DNA of 64,000 nucleotides. It comes from Psychrobacillus sp. NEAU-3TGS (lineage in GTDB: Bacteria > Bacillota > Bacilli > Bacillales_A > Planococcaceae). The stretch spans positions 310,001 to 374,000 of the forward strand of contig NZ_JAPNOZ010000011.1 in the NCBI RefSeq assembly GCF_029955155.1, in the 5' to 3' direction. The position numbers were made by a program, and so were the translations under genes. The notes beneath the pieces are model-generated. The model saw nothing but the letters and a program-made list of their open reading frames with translations, was not told the DNA's origin and did no database searches. Positions 43,733-51,066 of this stretch are shown piece after piece (the stretch's first letter is position 1; each line of letters begins with the position of its first letter).

Positions 43733-43925
43733 TTGAATGAAGTGTTCGCCATTTCCATGGGGTGAGCGATGAGCAATCCCCGCCGCTTAGTCGTACGTTG
43801 GGGTGACTCATTAGCCCATGTGGAACAAAGGTTAAGAACGCCAAATCGTGTGGCAACGCCTTTGAAATCAACATCCTGTTGCCCTCCACAGGAGTCGACG
43901 CCTGAGCGAAAATCAATTGTAATTG
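43733..43925. repeat. Dispersed GC-rich Bacillales repeat, type 3
   Basis: Immediately after the phosphatase stop: GTTGAATGAAGTGTTCGCC, TGAGCAATCCCCGCCGCTTA, TGTGGCAACGCCTTTGAAAT and CAGGAGTCGACGCCTGAGCG. GC content is clearly above the flanks. It starts with the same GTTGAATGAA seen at the left of the 25440 element. A short open frame through it is not considered a gene. Confidence 0.65.
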
Positions 43926-44851: not shown

Positions 44852-45015
44852 TTTTATCCCGCATTAACGGGCAGTAAGACTCCCACTTCAAGATTTAGAT
44901 TTAAAAAAAGCGATAAAGATAAGTGGGAGATCAACTGCCCGTAAAAGCCCGATTGGTTCAACTAACCATCAGTGGGGGATGAAGAAAACCCCCACTGATG
45001 GAAATTTCACTTTAT
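44852..45015 (+). repeat. Structured palindromic element, copy A (MITE/PATE-like or ncRNA)
   Basis: A 164-base block shared, in inverted orientation, with 47002-47217. It starts TTTTATCCCGCATTAACGGG, then has two nested nine-pair stems (ACGGGCAGT/ACTGCCCGT at 44867-44875 and 44934-44942; CTCCCACTT/AAGTGGGAG at 44880-44888 and 44921-44929), a linker CCCGATTGGTTCAACTAA, a 13-pair hairpin (CCATCAGTGGGGG at 44966-44978 with CCCCCACTGATGG at 44989-45001) and ends TTTCACTTTAT. No transposase gene is present. Subterminal hairpins suit a non-autonomous IS200/IS605-type element; a structured RNA is the alternative. Confidence 0.85.
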
Positions 45016-45121
45016 AGTATATGATAAAAAGAATTATTTTTTTCAACAGAAATAAATATATAACAATATTATTTTTAATTCAACGAAGACGAACTGAGTT
45101 TTCAGAGTGAGAAGAAACAAG

Positions 45122-45166
45122 AAAAGACACGCTTTAATCAAAAATCGATTAAAGCGTGTCTTTTTT
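45122..45166. terminator. Terminator after the first KGG gene
   Basis: AAAAGACACGCTTTAATC pairs perfectly with GATTAAAGCGTGTCTTTT around a seven-base loop, with T runs on both strands; 38 bases past the stop. Confidence 0.9.
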
Positions 45167-45203
45167 CATACTTATTAAGTTGTATTATATATCAATCTAT
45201 TAC

Positions 45204-45653
45204 TTAATCATTATCATCTTTGTTATTGCGTTGTTTACTCCGTGCTTCTCCGCCTTTACGTCCGGCTTCTTCTCTACTCATTTTGCCATCGTCATTATCA
45301 TTGTTGTCGTTGTCGCGTTGATTACTCCGCGCTTCTCCGCCTTTTGATCCAATTTCTTCATAAAAATCTCGGTCATGGTTTTCCGAAGTAGCTTCTCCGC
45401 CCTTGCGGCCAATTTCTTCGTAAAAGTCTCGATCATGGTTTTCTGAGGTAGCTTCTCCGCCTTTACGACCGATTTCCTCGTAAAAGTCTCGGTCATGGTT
45501 TTCCGAAGTAGCTTCTCCACCTTTTCTTCCAATTTCTTCGTAGAATTCACGATCATGATTTCTGGAGGTAGCTTCTCCGCCTTTACGTCCCGCTTCTTCG
45601 ACAGTCATTTTTTCATCATTGTTTCTGTTGCGATTGTTTTGCTTATTAGCCAT
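45204..45653 (-). CDS. KGG-repeat general stress protein (GsiB-like, long form)
   Basis: A 149-residue, very hydrophilic protein built from six KGG units of about 20 residues: first MTVEEAGRKGGEATSRNHD, then four of the form FYEEIGRKGGEATSENHD, and a last KMSREEAGRKGGEARSK after an Asn/Asp-rich spacer. These resemble GsiB of B. subtilis and plant LEA group 1 proteins and are thought to protect against water loss and other stress. Strong ribosome-binding site; a sigma-B-type promoter lies 56 bases upstream of the start. A two-unit paralogue is at 50884. Confidence 0.9.
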   Translation of the reverse strand: MANKQNNRNRNNDEKMTVEEAGRKGGEATSRNHDREFYEEIGRKGGEATSENHDRDFYEEIGRKGGEATSENHDRDFYEEIGRKGGEATSENHDRDFYEEIGSKGGEARSNQRDNDNNDNDDGKMSREEAGRKGGEARSKQRNNKDDND

Positions 45654-45708
45654 TATTCAATTCCTCCTTTAGATTTTTATCAAGCTTGTAATCAAGCTTA
45701 CTCTTTAT

Positions 45709-45733
45709 ATTCCCAGCTTCTATAAAGCTAAAC
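45709..45733 (-). promoter_or_regulatory. Sigma-B-type promoter of the long KGG gene
   Basis: GTTTAG at 45728-45733, spacer of 13, GGGAAT at 45709-45714 on the minus strand, close to the sigma-B consensus GTTTAA-N12-14-GGGTAT. The same arrangement and the following AGCTTGAT sequence are found before the second KGG gene. Confidence 0.75.
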
Positions 45734-45855
45734 ATGTAGTTTTAAAATTTTCACGGTTGTTAGTTAACCTTATTTCATGAGTAAAAGCTCACAAAAAATG
45801 CGTAGGGATGCGATAAAAACTCATCCCTACGCATGAAGATTACGGATTCTTCCGC

Positions 45856-46992
45856 TCAATCCATTTTAATAATAATACGCGAGGCATCTCCTGTAGCAAG
45901 TAAATCAAATCCCTCATTAATCTCCTCTAAAGAAATTATATTAGAAAGAAGTCGATCGACTGGTAGTCGCCCTTGCTCCATTAAGTTGATATAATTTGGA
46001 ATATCTCTTTTTGGAACACAGCTTCCTACGTACGATCCCTTTAACGTCCGTTCTTCAGCAGTCAAAGTAACATAAGGAAATGCAAATTTATGTTCAGGAT
46101 GGGGTAGTCCAGTTGTCGTCGTTACTCCTCCGCGTTTTGTTACACCGTATGCAACTTCCATTGCAGCAACAACTCCTGCCGTTTCAAATGCATAATCTAC
46201 TCCTCCATCCGTGTAAGCACGCACTTGCTCCACAACATCTGGATCATTCGAGTTAAATGTAGCAGTAGCTCCAAGCTCTTTTGCTTGTTCCAACTTCTTC
46301 TCATTAATGTCAATGGCAATGACCTCATTAGCCCCCGCTGCAATCGCCCCAAGTAATGCGCTCAATCCAATACCACCAAGTCCAATAACTGCCACTTTAC
46401 TCCCTAAAGTAACTTCCGCCGTATTTACTACAGCACCTACTCCTGTTATTACTGCACAGCCGAATAAAGCCATTTTTTCGAAAGGCAAATCTCTATCTAC
46501 TTTAACTAAGGAATTCTGCGCAACAACCGCATATTCGGAGAATGCGGAAACCCCAACATGGTGTCCAATGCTCTCTTCGCCATTATGAATACGCATACCG
46601 CCTCCGAGAAGCGTGCCCGCCCCATTTGCTTGGGCACCCGGTTCACATAACGCTGGTCGGCCTTCTGCACAGGGAATGCATTGACCACAGCTTGGTACAA
46701 ATACGCAAATAACCTTGTCTCCAGGCAGGAAGTTTGTTACACCTTCCCCCGTTTCAACTACGACTCCTGCTGCTTCATGACCAAGCGCCATAGGAAGGGG
46801 GCGTGGCCTGCTACCATTTATCACGGACAAATCGGAATGACATAAGCTTGCGGCTTTTATTTGTATTAATACTTCTCCAGCTCCAGGAGAATCTAGGTCT
46901 ACTTGCTCAATTTTAATGGGTCTACTAGATGCATAAGGTCGCTCTGCACCTGATTCACGTAAAATAGCAGATTTTACTTTCATAAAACTCAC
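45856..46992 (-). CDS. Zinc-dependent alcohol dehydrogenase
   Basis: A 378-residue MDR dehydrogenase. Catalytic zinc ligands in SLCHSDLS and GHEAAG, the four-cysteine structural zinc loop CGQCIPCAEGRPALC, and the NAD-binding GLGGIGLSALLGA followed by an acidic IDINEKK end (favouring NAD over NADP). The frame starts at 46992; ATG 46983 (MKVKSAI) is a likelier start, after GGAGTGAG. Oxidises a primary alcohol to an aldehyde; it lies downstream of the aldehyde dehydrogenase, with element copy B between them. Confidence 0.9.
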   Translation of the reverse strand: MSFMKVKSAILRESGAERPYASSRPIKIEQVDLDSPGAGEVLIQIKAASLCHSDLSVINGSRPRPLPMALGHEAAGVVVETGEGVTNFLPGDKVICVFVPSCGQCIPCAEGRPALCEPGAQANGAGTLLGGGMRIHNGEESIGHHVGVSAFSEYAVVAQNSLVKVDRDLPFEKMALFGCAVITGVGAVVNTAEVTLGSKVAVIGLGGIGLSALLGAIAAGANEVIAIDINEKKLEQAKELGATATFNSNDPDVVEQVRAYTDGGVDYAFETAGVVAAMEVAYGVTKRGGVTTTTGLPHPEHKFAFPYVTLTAEERTLKGSYVGSCVPKRDIPNYINLMEQGRLPVDRLLSNIISLEEINEGFDLLATGDASRIIIKMD

Positions 46993-47001
46993 TCCTTTAT
47001 G

Positions 47002-47217
47002 ATAAAGTGAAACTTCAATCAGTGGGGGTTTTTCGACGCACAGGACGTGCTAGTGGGGACGGTGCGACATGGACGTCGCGCTTTTAGTCCTCGTCATCCC
47101 CCACTGATTGTTAGTTGAACCAATCGGGCTTTTACGGGCAGTTGATCTCCCACTTATCTTTTCGCTTTTATTATATCTTGAAGTGGGAATCTTACTGCCC
47201 GTTAATGCGGGATAAAA
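47002..47217 (-). repeat. Structured palindromic element, copy B (inverted relative to A)
   Basis: The minus strand matches copy A from TTTTATCCCGCATTAACGGG to TTTCACTTTAT. It differs mainly by about 50 extra bases inside the last hairpin loop, which themselves fold (GCGAC/GTCGC and GCAC/GTGC). The 13-pair stem is kept with a compensatory change: CAATCAGTGGGGG (47016-47028) with CCCCCACTGATTG (47098-47110), where copy A has CCATC and GATGG. The inner stem has a C-to-T change that leaves a G:U pair. The first 26 bases overlap the end of the aldehyde dehydrogenase frame. Confidence 0.85.
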
Positions 47218-48643
47218 TTTTCATTCCGATAAATTTAAGGTCCGTCATCTCTTCGATTGCATAATGAATTCCTTCTTTGCCGATACCACTTTCTTTTACC
47301 CCACCGTACGGAATATGATCGTATCGTTTAACAGAAGCTTCATTAATCCATACTCCCCCGGTTTCTAAGGATTCTGCTACTCTCATTGCCAGATTAATAT
47401 TATTCGTAAATACTCCTGCCTGTAGCCCGTAGCGTGAATCGTTTGCATAACTAATTACTTCTTCTTCCGTCTCAAATGGCACTATAGCGATAATTGGAGC
47501 AAAAACTTCCTGACAAACAACCTTCATCTCCAAATTAACGTTTTCTAAAATCGTTGGTTCTAAGAAAGTACCGTTTCTTGTTCCACCCGTACGAATAACC
47601 GCTCCCGCTTCAACAGCTTCTTGAATCCATAATTCTGCCTTTTTGGCCGCCTCTTCGGTAATCATCGGTCCTAACTGAGTCGATTCTTCTTTAGGATCAC
47701 CAATTCTCAGAGCAGCTACCTTCTCTGTAAGTTTATTTAAAAACTCGTCATAAACGGATTCATGAACAAAAATACGTTGTGCCGATACGCATGCTTGGCC
47801 TGCGAAAGTAAAGCCGCCCATCAGGATGGAAGATACGGCATTATCTATATTTGCGTCATCAAAAATAATATTTGGCGCATTGGACCCTAATTCAAGTGTC
47901 ACTTTTTTCCCTTTAGCCATCTCATGGATTTTCCACCCCACTGCTCCACTACCAGTAAAAGTTACTTTTTTGACAAGTGGATGGGTCACAAGTGGCTCTA
48001 CTAAATTCTGCCCTGGACCTTGAATGATGTTCAGCGCACCAGACGGTAACCCAGCCTCTAGAAATAATTTATATAAGGCAACGGTAGAAAATGGTGTTTT
48101 TTCCGCAGGCTTTATAACAATTGTATTTCCTGCGGCGATTGCAGGCGCAATTTTATGCAATGCCATATTTAATGGGAAATTAAAAGGCGTTATTGCAGCG
48201 ACAACTCCAAGTGGAACACGCTTGGAAAAACCAAATTGTTGCTCTCCACCGATTGCATTATCAAGAACTATTTGCTCCCCGTGAAGATTTTTCGCTCCCT
48301 CTGCAGCAAAATGTAAAACTTGAATCGCCCTTGCTACCTCACCTCGAGCTTCTACGATTGGTTTACCAGCTTCTAATGTTAAAAGCTCTGCAAATGCTTC
48401 TTTTCTTAACTCTAACAAATCTGCCGTGTTGCGTAAGATTTGACTTCTTCTATGCGCCGGCATTTTCTTCATCGTATGCTGAAATACTTCATGCGCATTT
48501 TCCACCGCTTGGACTACTTCGTCCCTAGTAGCACAAAAAATATGTCCTATTTTTTCTTGATTGTATGGATTTAGAACATCGATTACATCTCTTTCACCTG
48601 CTATTAACTCCTCTGAATCTATGAAAGAACCGTTTATTAACAT
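47192..48643 (-). CDS. NAD(P)-dependent aldehyde dehydrogenase
   Basis: A 483-residue ALDH superfamily enzyme. It shows ITPFNFPLN, KPAEKTPFST, FTGSGAVGWKIHEMAKG (cofactor loop), the catalytic LELGSNAP glutamate and FAGQACVSAQR cysteine, and late CQEVFAPI. GSNAP rather than GGKNP suggests the phosphorylating-type or GapN/lactaldehyde-dehydrogenase-like branch. The last eight codons (LSRINGQ and stop) are contributed by structured element copy B, so the original C-terminus has been replaced. Upstream neighbours are a lactonase and a zinc dehydrogenase on the same strand. Confidence 0.93.
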   Translation of the reverse strand: MLINGSFIDSEELIAGERDVIDVLNPYNQEKIGHIFCATRDEVVQAVENAHEVFQHTMKKMPAHRRSQILRNTADLLELRKEAFAELLTLEAGKPIVEARGEVARAIQVLHFAAEGAKNLHGEQIVLDNAIGGEQQFGFSKRVPLGVVAAITPFNFPLNMALHKIAPAIAAGNTIVIKPAEKTPFSTVALYKLFLEAGLPSGALNIIQGPGQNLVEPLVTHPLVKKVTFTGSGAVGWKIHEMAKGKKVTLELGSNAPNIIFDDANIDNAVSSILMGGFTFAGQACVSAQRIFVHESVYDEFLNKLTEKVAALRIGDPKEESTQLGPMITEEAAKKAELWIQEAVEAGAVIRTGGTRNGTFLEPTILENVNLEMKVVCQEVFAPIIAIVPFETEEEVISYANDSRYGLQAGVFTNNINLAMRVAESLETGGVWINEASVKRYDHIPYGGVKESGIGKEGIHYAIEEMTDLKFIGMKILSRINGQ

Positions 48644-50883: not shown

Positions 50884-51066
50884 TTAATTTTTGTCTTTAT
50901 TATTGTCACGTTGTTTACTACGTGCTTCTCCGCCTTTACGACCTATCTCCTCGTAAAATTCGCGACCATGATTCTTAGAGGTAGCTTCTCCGCCTTTACG
51001 TCCCGCTTCTTCGACAGTCATATTTTGGTTGCTGTTTTTGTTGCGATTGTTTTGCTTATTAGCCAT
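50884..51066 (-). CDS. KGG-repeat general stress protein (short form)
   Basis: A 60-residue paralogue of the KGG protein at 45204, with the same N-terminus (MANKQNNRNKN then MTVEEAGRKGGEATSKNHG) and C-terminus (GGEARSKQRDNN) but only two KGG units. The long form looks like this one with inner units duplicated. Upstream, both genes share the ribosome-binding site, an AGCTTGAT stretch and a sigma-B-type promoter, so they are probably co-induced under general stress. Confidence 0.88.
   Translation of the reverse strand: MANKQNNRNKNSNQNMTVEEAGRKGGEATSKNHGREFYEEIGRKGGEARSKQRDNNKDKN

Follow-up and report, generated by a model that had tools for sequence, protein, structure and literature searches.

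The window analysed here, a stretch of 64,000 nucleotides from Psychrobacillus sp. NEAU-3TGS, carries two inverted copies of a structured element bordered by the pentanucleotide TTTAT, denoted W1 and W2. W2 adjoins two dehydrogenase genes, and an RNA module of the Rfam family Bacillaceae-1 (RF01690) is found both within W2 and outside the two copies. The features concerned are the following:

43816..43882, + strand: the window's second Bacillaceae-1 module (52.5 bits), lying in a repeat of a different type and not in a TTTAT element
44853..45015, + strand: W1, the module-free short form, 163 bp including both terminal TTTAT (covariance model R1, 179.3 bits; site empty in the sister species G117)
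44853..44857, + strand: left TTTAT of W1 (edge)
44856..44875, + strand: 5' arm of the outer stem of W1, pairing with 44934-44953 (16 pairs, 97.7% of cells paired, double changes in 3)
44934..44953, + strand: 3' arm of the outer stem of W1, partner of 44856-44875
44960..45006, + strand: right-end hairpin of W1, with arms 44960-44971 and 44996-45006 and an inner GGGGG/CCCCC stem (double changes in 7 of 10 pairs, a C:G to A:T pair among them)
45011..45015, + strand: right TTTAT of W1 (edge)
45856..46992, - strand: gene for a zinc alcohol dehydrogenase, downstream of W2 and with its ribosome-binding site just outside W2
47002..47216, - strand: W2, one-module form, 215 bp (163.5 bits with the R1 model; G117 and G068 both have a precise empty site)
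47212-47216 and 47002-47006, - strand: left and right terminal TTTAT of W2 (edges)
47037..47102, - strand, same orientation as W2: Bacillaceae-1 RNA module (RF01690) of W2, in the right-end hairpin loop (36.8 bits, gathering score 35)
47192..48643, - strand: aldehyde dehydrogenase gene (PF00171), whose 3' end is the W2 insertion point and whose present stop codon is supplied by W2 (tail ...LSRINGQ, then stop)

The two inverted structured copies described in an earlier, sequence-only reading of this DNA are present, and their true edges run from TTTAT to TTTAT, i.e. 44853-45015 (+) and 47002-47216 (-). Their inverted arms are complementary to 97% (44915-44985/47091-47161), 96% (44852-44897/47172-47217), and 85% (44985-45024/46993-47032). 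Folding of the DNA gives z = -7.6 for W1 and -7.1 for W2 against dinucleotide shuffles, and no shuffle out of 200 folds as well. The loop of the right-end hairpin measures 10 nt in W1 vs 66 nt between the same arms in W2; the roughly 50 bases that the earlier reading saw added to this loop thus amount to ~56, and they match RF01690 above its gathering threshold, covering model positions 1-67 of 67.

When the flanks of W2 are joined without the element, the aldehyde dehydrogenase frame reads ...KFIGMKILS followed by a TAA stop. The insertion has removed this original stop, and RINGQ is appended before the stop of the element itself. Within 47192-47216, two of the three forward frames meet an early stop provided by the element (after the tails LSRINGQ and FIPH), so that insertions at gene ends yield short, defined tails. 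Two further observations concern the wider window. A KGG-repeat stress protein (PF10685) with about six repeats is encoded at 45204-45653 (-), and a shorter relative lies 5 kb off at 50884-51066 (-). The flanks of the module at 43816-43882 are similar to those of a copy at C12:26699, which suggests a further dispersed repeat family.

Direct evidence for movement comes from sites that lack the element. The W2 flanks, joined at one TTTAT, find a gapless match of 1188 bases (87%) in the sister species G117 and another gapless match in G068 (78%), and matches with small gaps in more distant genomes. The sites of W1 and of four other copies (L011, L012, L013, and L015) are all empty in G117 as well; with W2, the empty target sites that the earlier reading had called for are present at 6/6 tested loci. 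The pentanucleotide in G117 is unchanged at W2, L012, and L015 and has drifted at other sites (TTTAG at L011). One copy, L012, splits a histidine-phosphatase sequence (PF00300, 4.7e-18) precisely within its conserved ASDLSRA motif, and joining the flanks of L012 at one TTTAT makes this motif whole again. The same unit is visible in head-to-tail arrays, in which neighbours have exactly one TTTAT in common (L053, L064, L093, and L110; G109 C65), and at G076 C1:713886-714363 three elements follow one another in a row with TTTAT shared. Since the sister-species sites are empty and continuous, the element moved as a DNA unit, and together with the arrays they define the mobile unit as the element plus one TTTAT, with TTTAT as the target. 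The presence of TTTAT on both sides of the element and of a single one in the empty site fits a duplication and a fixed target alike.

W1 and W2 belong to a large dispersed family. BLAST with W1 gives 64 matches in the own genome, with 92-93% for the next copies, and the R1 model gives 63, one long copy being able to produce several matches; 40 elements were extracted with their flanks. These copies differ from each other by ~10%, and several are truncated, so that present-day activity is no more than possible. The further copies looked for on the basis of the earlier reading also exist beyond this genome: in a class-wide sample, the element is present in 47 of 399 Bacilli genomes and 24 of 145 genera. 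A 22-base left-end pattern occurs at more than 117 loci in named genomes of Lysinibacillus, Psychrobacillus, Domibacillus, Sporosarcina, Filibacter, Cytobacillus, Peribacillus, Neobacillus, Priestia, Rummeliibacillus, Gottfriedia, Terrilactibacillus, Sporolactobacillus, and others. The nearest named copies are those of Psychrobacillus lasiicapitis, which share the same 316-317-bp composite form, in keeping with an origin of the window in Psychrobacillus. The phages searched for the element gave no match, and IMG/VR contains one matching contig. A decayed copy in an AT-rich, Bacillus-like stretch of the Klebsiella grimontii plasmid pNY3A (L195; CP079755.1, 221561-221652) reflects either horizontal transfer or mis-assembly/contamination.

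The basic form of the element is 156-158 bp (~157 bp) long, non-coding, and without an ORF. Intact copies read TTTAT-CCCGCATTAACGGGCAGTAAGA...TGAAGTTTCAC-TTTAT and vary in length. Of the 123 elements with both ends resolved, 101 have TTTAT at the start and 111 at the end, some copies having lost it at one end; where a left end has no right end close by, the copy is truncated, diverged, or internally rearranged. Terminal inverted repeats (TIRs) are absent, as is evident from comparing the left end CCCGCATTAACGGG with the reverse complement of the right end, GTGAAACTTCAATC, and the end sequences CCCGCATTAAC and GTGAAACTTC are unrelated to each other. Some Bacillus/Peribacillus-type genomes (L066, L092, L115, and L136) have another kind of insert in the middle loop, ~110 bp long and including part of the element's own right end in inverted copy.

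The fold of the element is under selection, as the sequence-only reading had argued from the two copies of the window. In an alignment of 35 diverse short-form copies (A1), the consensus structure comprises 28 pairs, of which 97.3% of cells are paired, and 11 of these pairs show double changes vs 2.9 +/- 1.1 in shuffles. The covariation score amounts to 0.138, compared with 0.061 +/- 0.005 for shuffled alignments and at most 0.028 for slid structures. The palindromes near both ends, i.e. the outer stem and the right-end hairpin, both covary, the latter in 7 of 10 pairs. The exchange of C:G for A:T with pairing kept, noticed between W1 and W2, corresponds to alignment pair 124/160 in this hairpin, which is A:U in 21 of the 35 copies, C:G in 10, G:U in 1, and unpaired in 3. 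In a variant subfamily (L085 and L093), CGGGCAGT/ACTGCCCG is replaced by CAGGCTGT/ACAGCCTG. A CCCG/CGGG hairpin at the start of the element, previously proposed to compete with the outer stem, is able to form, but a switch between two folds is unsupported: the motif is invariant, without covariation, and is broken in three sequences by a G to A change, while in the same three sequences the outer stem still pairs through a compensating change; the L085/L093 subfamily is among those in which it is broken.

Beyond W2, the same loops in other genera contain Bacillaceae-1 modules of up to 80.6 bits. Element length tracks the number of modules, with 0, 1, and 2 modules at ~157, 217, and 279 bp. Among 54 elements from 50 loci, no module is present in 15/15 elements of up to 172 bp, one in 17/21 elements of 173-250 bp, and two in 11/18 elements of 251-345 bp. 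Modules in the middle-stem loop occur in either orientation (16 opposite, 13 same), and those in the right-end hairpin loop have the orientation of the element in 11 of 13 cases.

The family is by no means confined to TTTAT elements, being present inside no fewer than three unrelated repeat families as well. These account for 33 of the 59 RF01690 matches in the own genome; judged by marker motifs, 14 of the remaining 26 lie in a second repeat (AAGCGCAAGCGCC...CGACAGGCAAATGG...), five in a third (CCTCCGGCGGATG...), and two, including 43816-43882, in a fourth. G117 contains a module-free copy of the second repeat (L275). A palindromic repeat family, AAGCGCAAGCGCCTATGTCTGCCCCGACAGGCAAATGG...GGCGC, whose module-free copy in G117 is likewise L275, carries Bacillaceae-1 modules in the own genome (L211-L228 and L232). 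RF01690 is present in 67 of 300 Bacilli genomes, often in at least 16 copies. Of the best 30 loci, taken one per genome, two are inside TTTAT elements and ~11 abut or sit between rRNA or tRNA genes. In several Bacilli, the modules fill spacers between tRNA genes or abut the 5' ends of 16S or 5S rRNA (L250-L253 and L258-L268, e.g. L258:809-1568 and L263:1501-1566), a neighbourhood that hints at a role in RNA processing.

Given these varied locations, the described "sRNA" is a repeated module with several kinds of home, which may insert by itself or travel by recombination. Bacillaceae-1 is catalogued as a stand-alone candidate sRNA of Bacillaceae, whereas here it is nested in the hairpin loops of mobile repeats; the W2 insert conforms to the family in its score and in its two hairpins with (A/G)TCCT-type loops. 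RF01690 is not known to have been described before as part of mobile repeats, and the literature searched has no such description. The proposal that the two copies represent an RNA related to IS200/IS605 transposons finds no support in that wording, the RNA part being a Bacillaceae-1 module nested in the loop. At somewhat less than even odds, Bacillaceae-1 may be a transferable double-hairpin cassette of ~61-70 bp that settles in hairpin loops of several unrelated mobile palindromic repeat families (TTTAT elements in either orientation and at least three others in the genome) and in tRNA/rRNA operon spacers, and that may act as an RNA-processing or insulating signal making insertions in transcribed regions harmless. 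If true, such a signal would favour the spread of the host repeats.

Among known repeats, bcr1 is the closest counterpart; it is reportedly ~155 bp long and, by hybridisation, specific to the B. cereus group, as Okstad is said to have found in 2004. The two have in common that they are non-coding and structured, of similar size, dispersed in tens of copies at variable sites, and ended by TTTAT. In contrast to bcr1, reported from the B. cereus group only, the TTTAT family is distributed over at least 24 genera of Bacilli and carries Bacillaceae-1 modules. The group A repeats bcr1-bcr3 are described as MITE-like, ~150 bp long, and containing TTTAT motifs (PMC6542083, PMC3446304, PMC2267715). The TTTAT element most resembles bcr1, and kinship with it would follow from the description of bcr1 rather than from its sequence. 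A BLAST of the element against plasmids retrieved no match from the B. cereus group, and BclA_C (PF18573) was discarded as a marker of this group, being too widespread. The nearest architectural parallel, compared as architecture only, is provided by the BOX elements of Streptococcus pneumoniae, which are built as boxA-boxBn-boxC, the fixed outer modules enclosing an inner structured one in varying copy number (PMC3049150). Unlike TTTAT elements, BOX has TIRs and target duplications; the inner module of TTTAT elements is an Rfam family that also occurs outside the element in other repeats and occupies two separate loops.

W1 and W2 are best read, with a probability of roughly 0.86, as copies of a bcr1-type mobile DNA element that is non-coding and non-autonomous, targets TTTAT, would be moved in trans, and has loops that accept Bacillaceae-1 modules. 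The earlier suggestion that the element is mobile but non-autonomous and that selection acts on its fold is borne out by further copies, covariation, and empty target sites. The basic unit of ~157 bp begins and ends with TTTAT, between which lie, in this order, a long imperfect stem, a short middle stem, and a second strong hairpin. It inserts precisely at TTTAT, leaving one TTTAT per side and no other change of the target, and a separate enzyme acting in trans would move it. Conserved folds at both ends are expected if this machinery recognises hairpins of single-stranded DNA (or of a transcript). The loops of the middle and right-end stems take up modules of ~61 bp, giving rise to forms with 0, 1, and 2 modules, and the module-bearing forms would then spread as composite units.

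Which enzyme might serve this function is the point on which the IS200/IS605 reading bears. It holds that the element is a miniature IS200/IS605 derivative (PATE/REP-like) and that a Y1 HUH transposase, either TnpA or the single RAYT-like protein of the genome, moves it in single-stranded form. According to PMC4227781, elements of this group use a short T-rich target with insertion 3' of it and have subterminal palindromes and no TIR, and group A IStrons of the IS200/IS605 type have TTTAT among their targets. The anatomy of the TTTAT element agrees: its target is a T-rich pentanucleotide, palindromes lie near both ends, TIRs and any additional duplication are absent, and tandem copies have TTTAT in common. 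The own genome also encodes one Y1_Tnp of 196-202 aa, which is RAYT-like. This anatomical part of the earlier assignment stands; the link to a transposase does not. The element differs from PATEs and REPs in having neither an associated transposase gene nor co-occurrence with Y1. Among 121 family genomes, with kinship ignored, Y1 and element occur together in 32 vs 32.2 expected (Fisher p = 1), classical TnpA and element in 11 vs 13.8 expected, and RAYT and element, at most weakly associated, in 27 vs 22.3 expected (p = 0.10). Eighteen element-bearing genomes have no Y1 match in either search, and no copy lies within 12 kb around the RAYT gene. A full-length relative with tnpA/tnpB, which the earlier reading had thought worth seeking, did not appear among ~120 loci scanned in 8-kb stretches for paired ends; none of these loci had the same ends kilobases apart. 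RAYT and TnpA were set aside as mobilisers on the co-occurrence in the 121 family genomes, and the IS200/IS605 origin is considered rather unlikely; an extinct or displaced transposase may stand behind the TTTAT elements. IStrons and other composite mobile elements resemble the element in enclosing a structured RNA part in mobile DNA, but the TTTAT element has no ribozyme or ORFs and is far smaller.

Two further rival explanations remain. If the element were a conventional MITE under a DDE transposase, TTTAT would be its 5-bp target duplication; this would account for a small, non-coding element with TTTAT on both sides and a single one in the empty site, and bcr1-bcr3 have been called MITE-like (PMC3446304). 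However, TIRs are missing, and a near-fixed 5-bp sequence suggests target specificity rather than an arbitrary duplication, which makes this origin distinctly improbable. The family might also be primarily a functional RNA, cis-regulatory or small, whose fold is kept for its RNA function and which spread by ordinary duplication. The compensatory changes are compatible with that, as are the membership of the module in an Rfam RNA family whose other locations include the spaces between tRNA and rRNA genes and the transcription of about half of the B. cereus bcr repeats (PMC3446304). Yet the sites are unconserved (all six empty in the sister species), one copy lies inside a coding sequence, exact TTTAT edges and arrays with shared TTTAT are marks of a mobile unit, and size changes by whole modules, so that an RNA function as the primary cause appears improbable.

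The TTTAT family consists of real, mobile, fold-conserved repeats of a known kind, in a modular variant with an Rfam family as its inner part. With it, a bcr1-like class of mobile repeats reaches beyond the B. cereus group into a broad spectrum of Bacilli, and the class gains clean empty sites and a covariation-supported fold. An orphan Rfam family is re-filed as a module moving with, and between, repeat families. It thereby becomes testable what moves the transposase-less TTTAT elements, and which role the Bacillaceae-1 double hairpin has in rRNA/tRNA spacers and inside mobile repeats.
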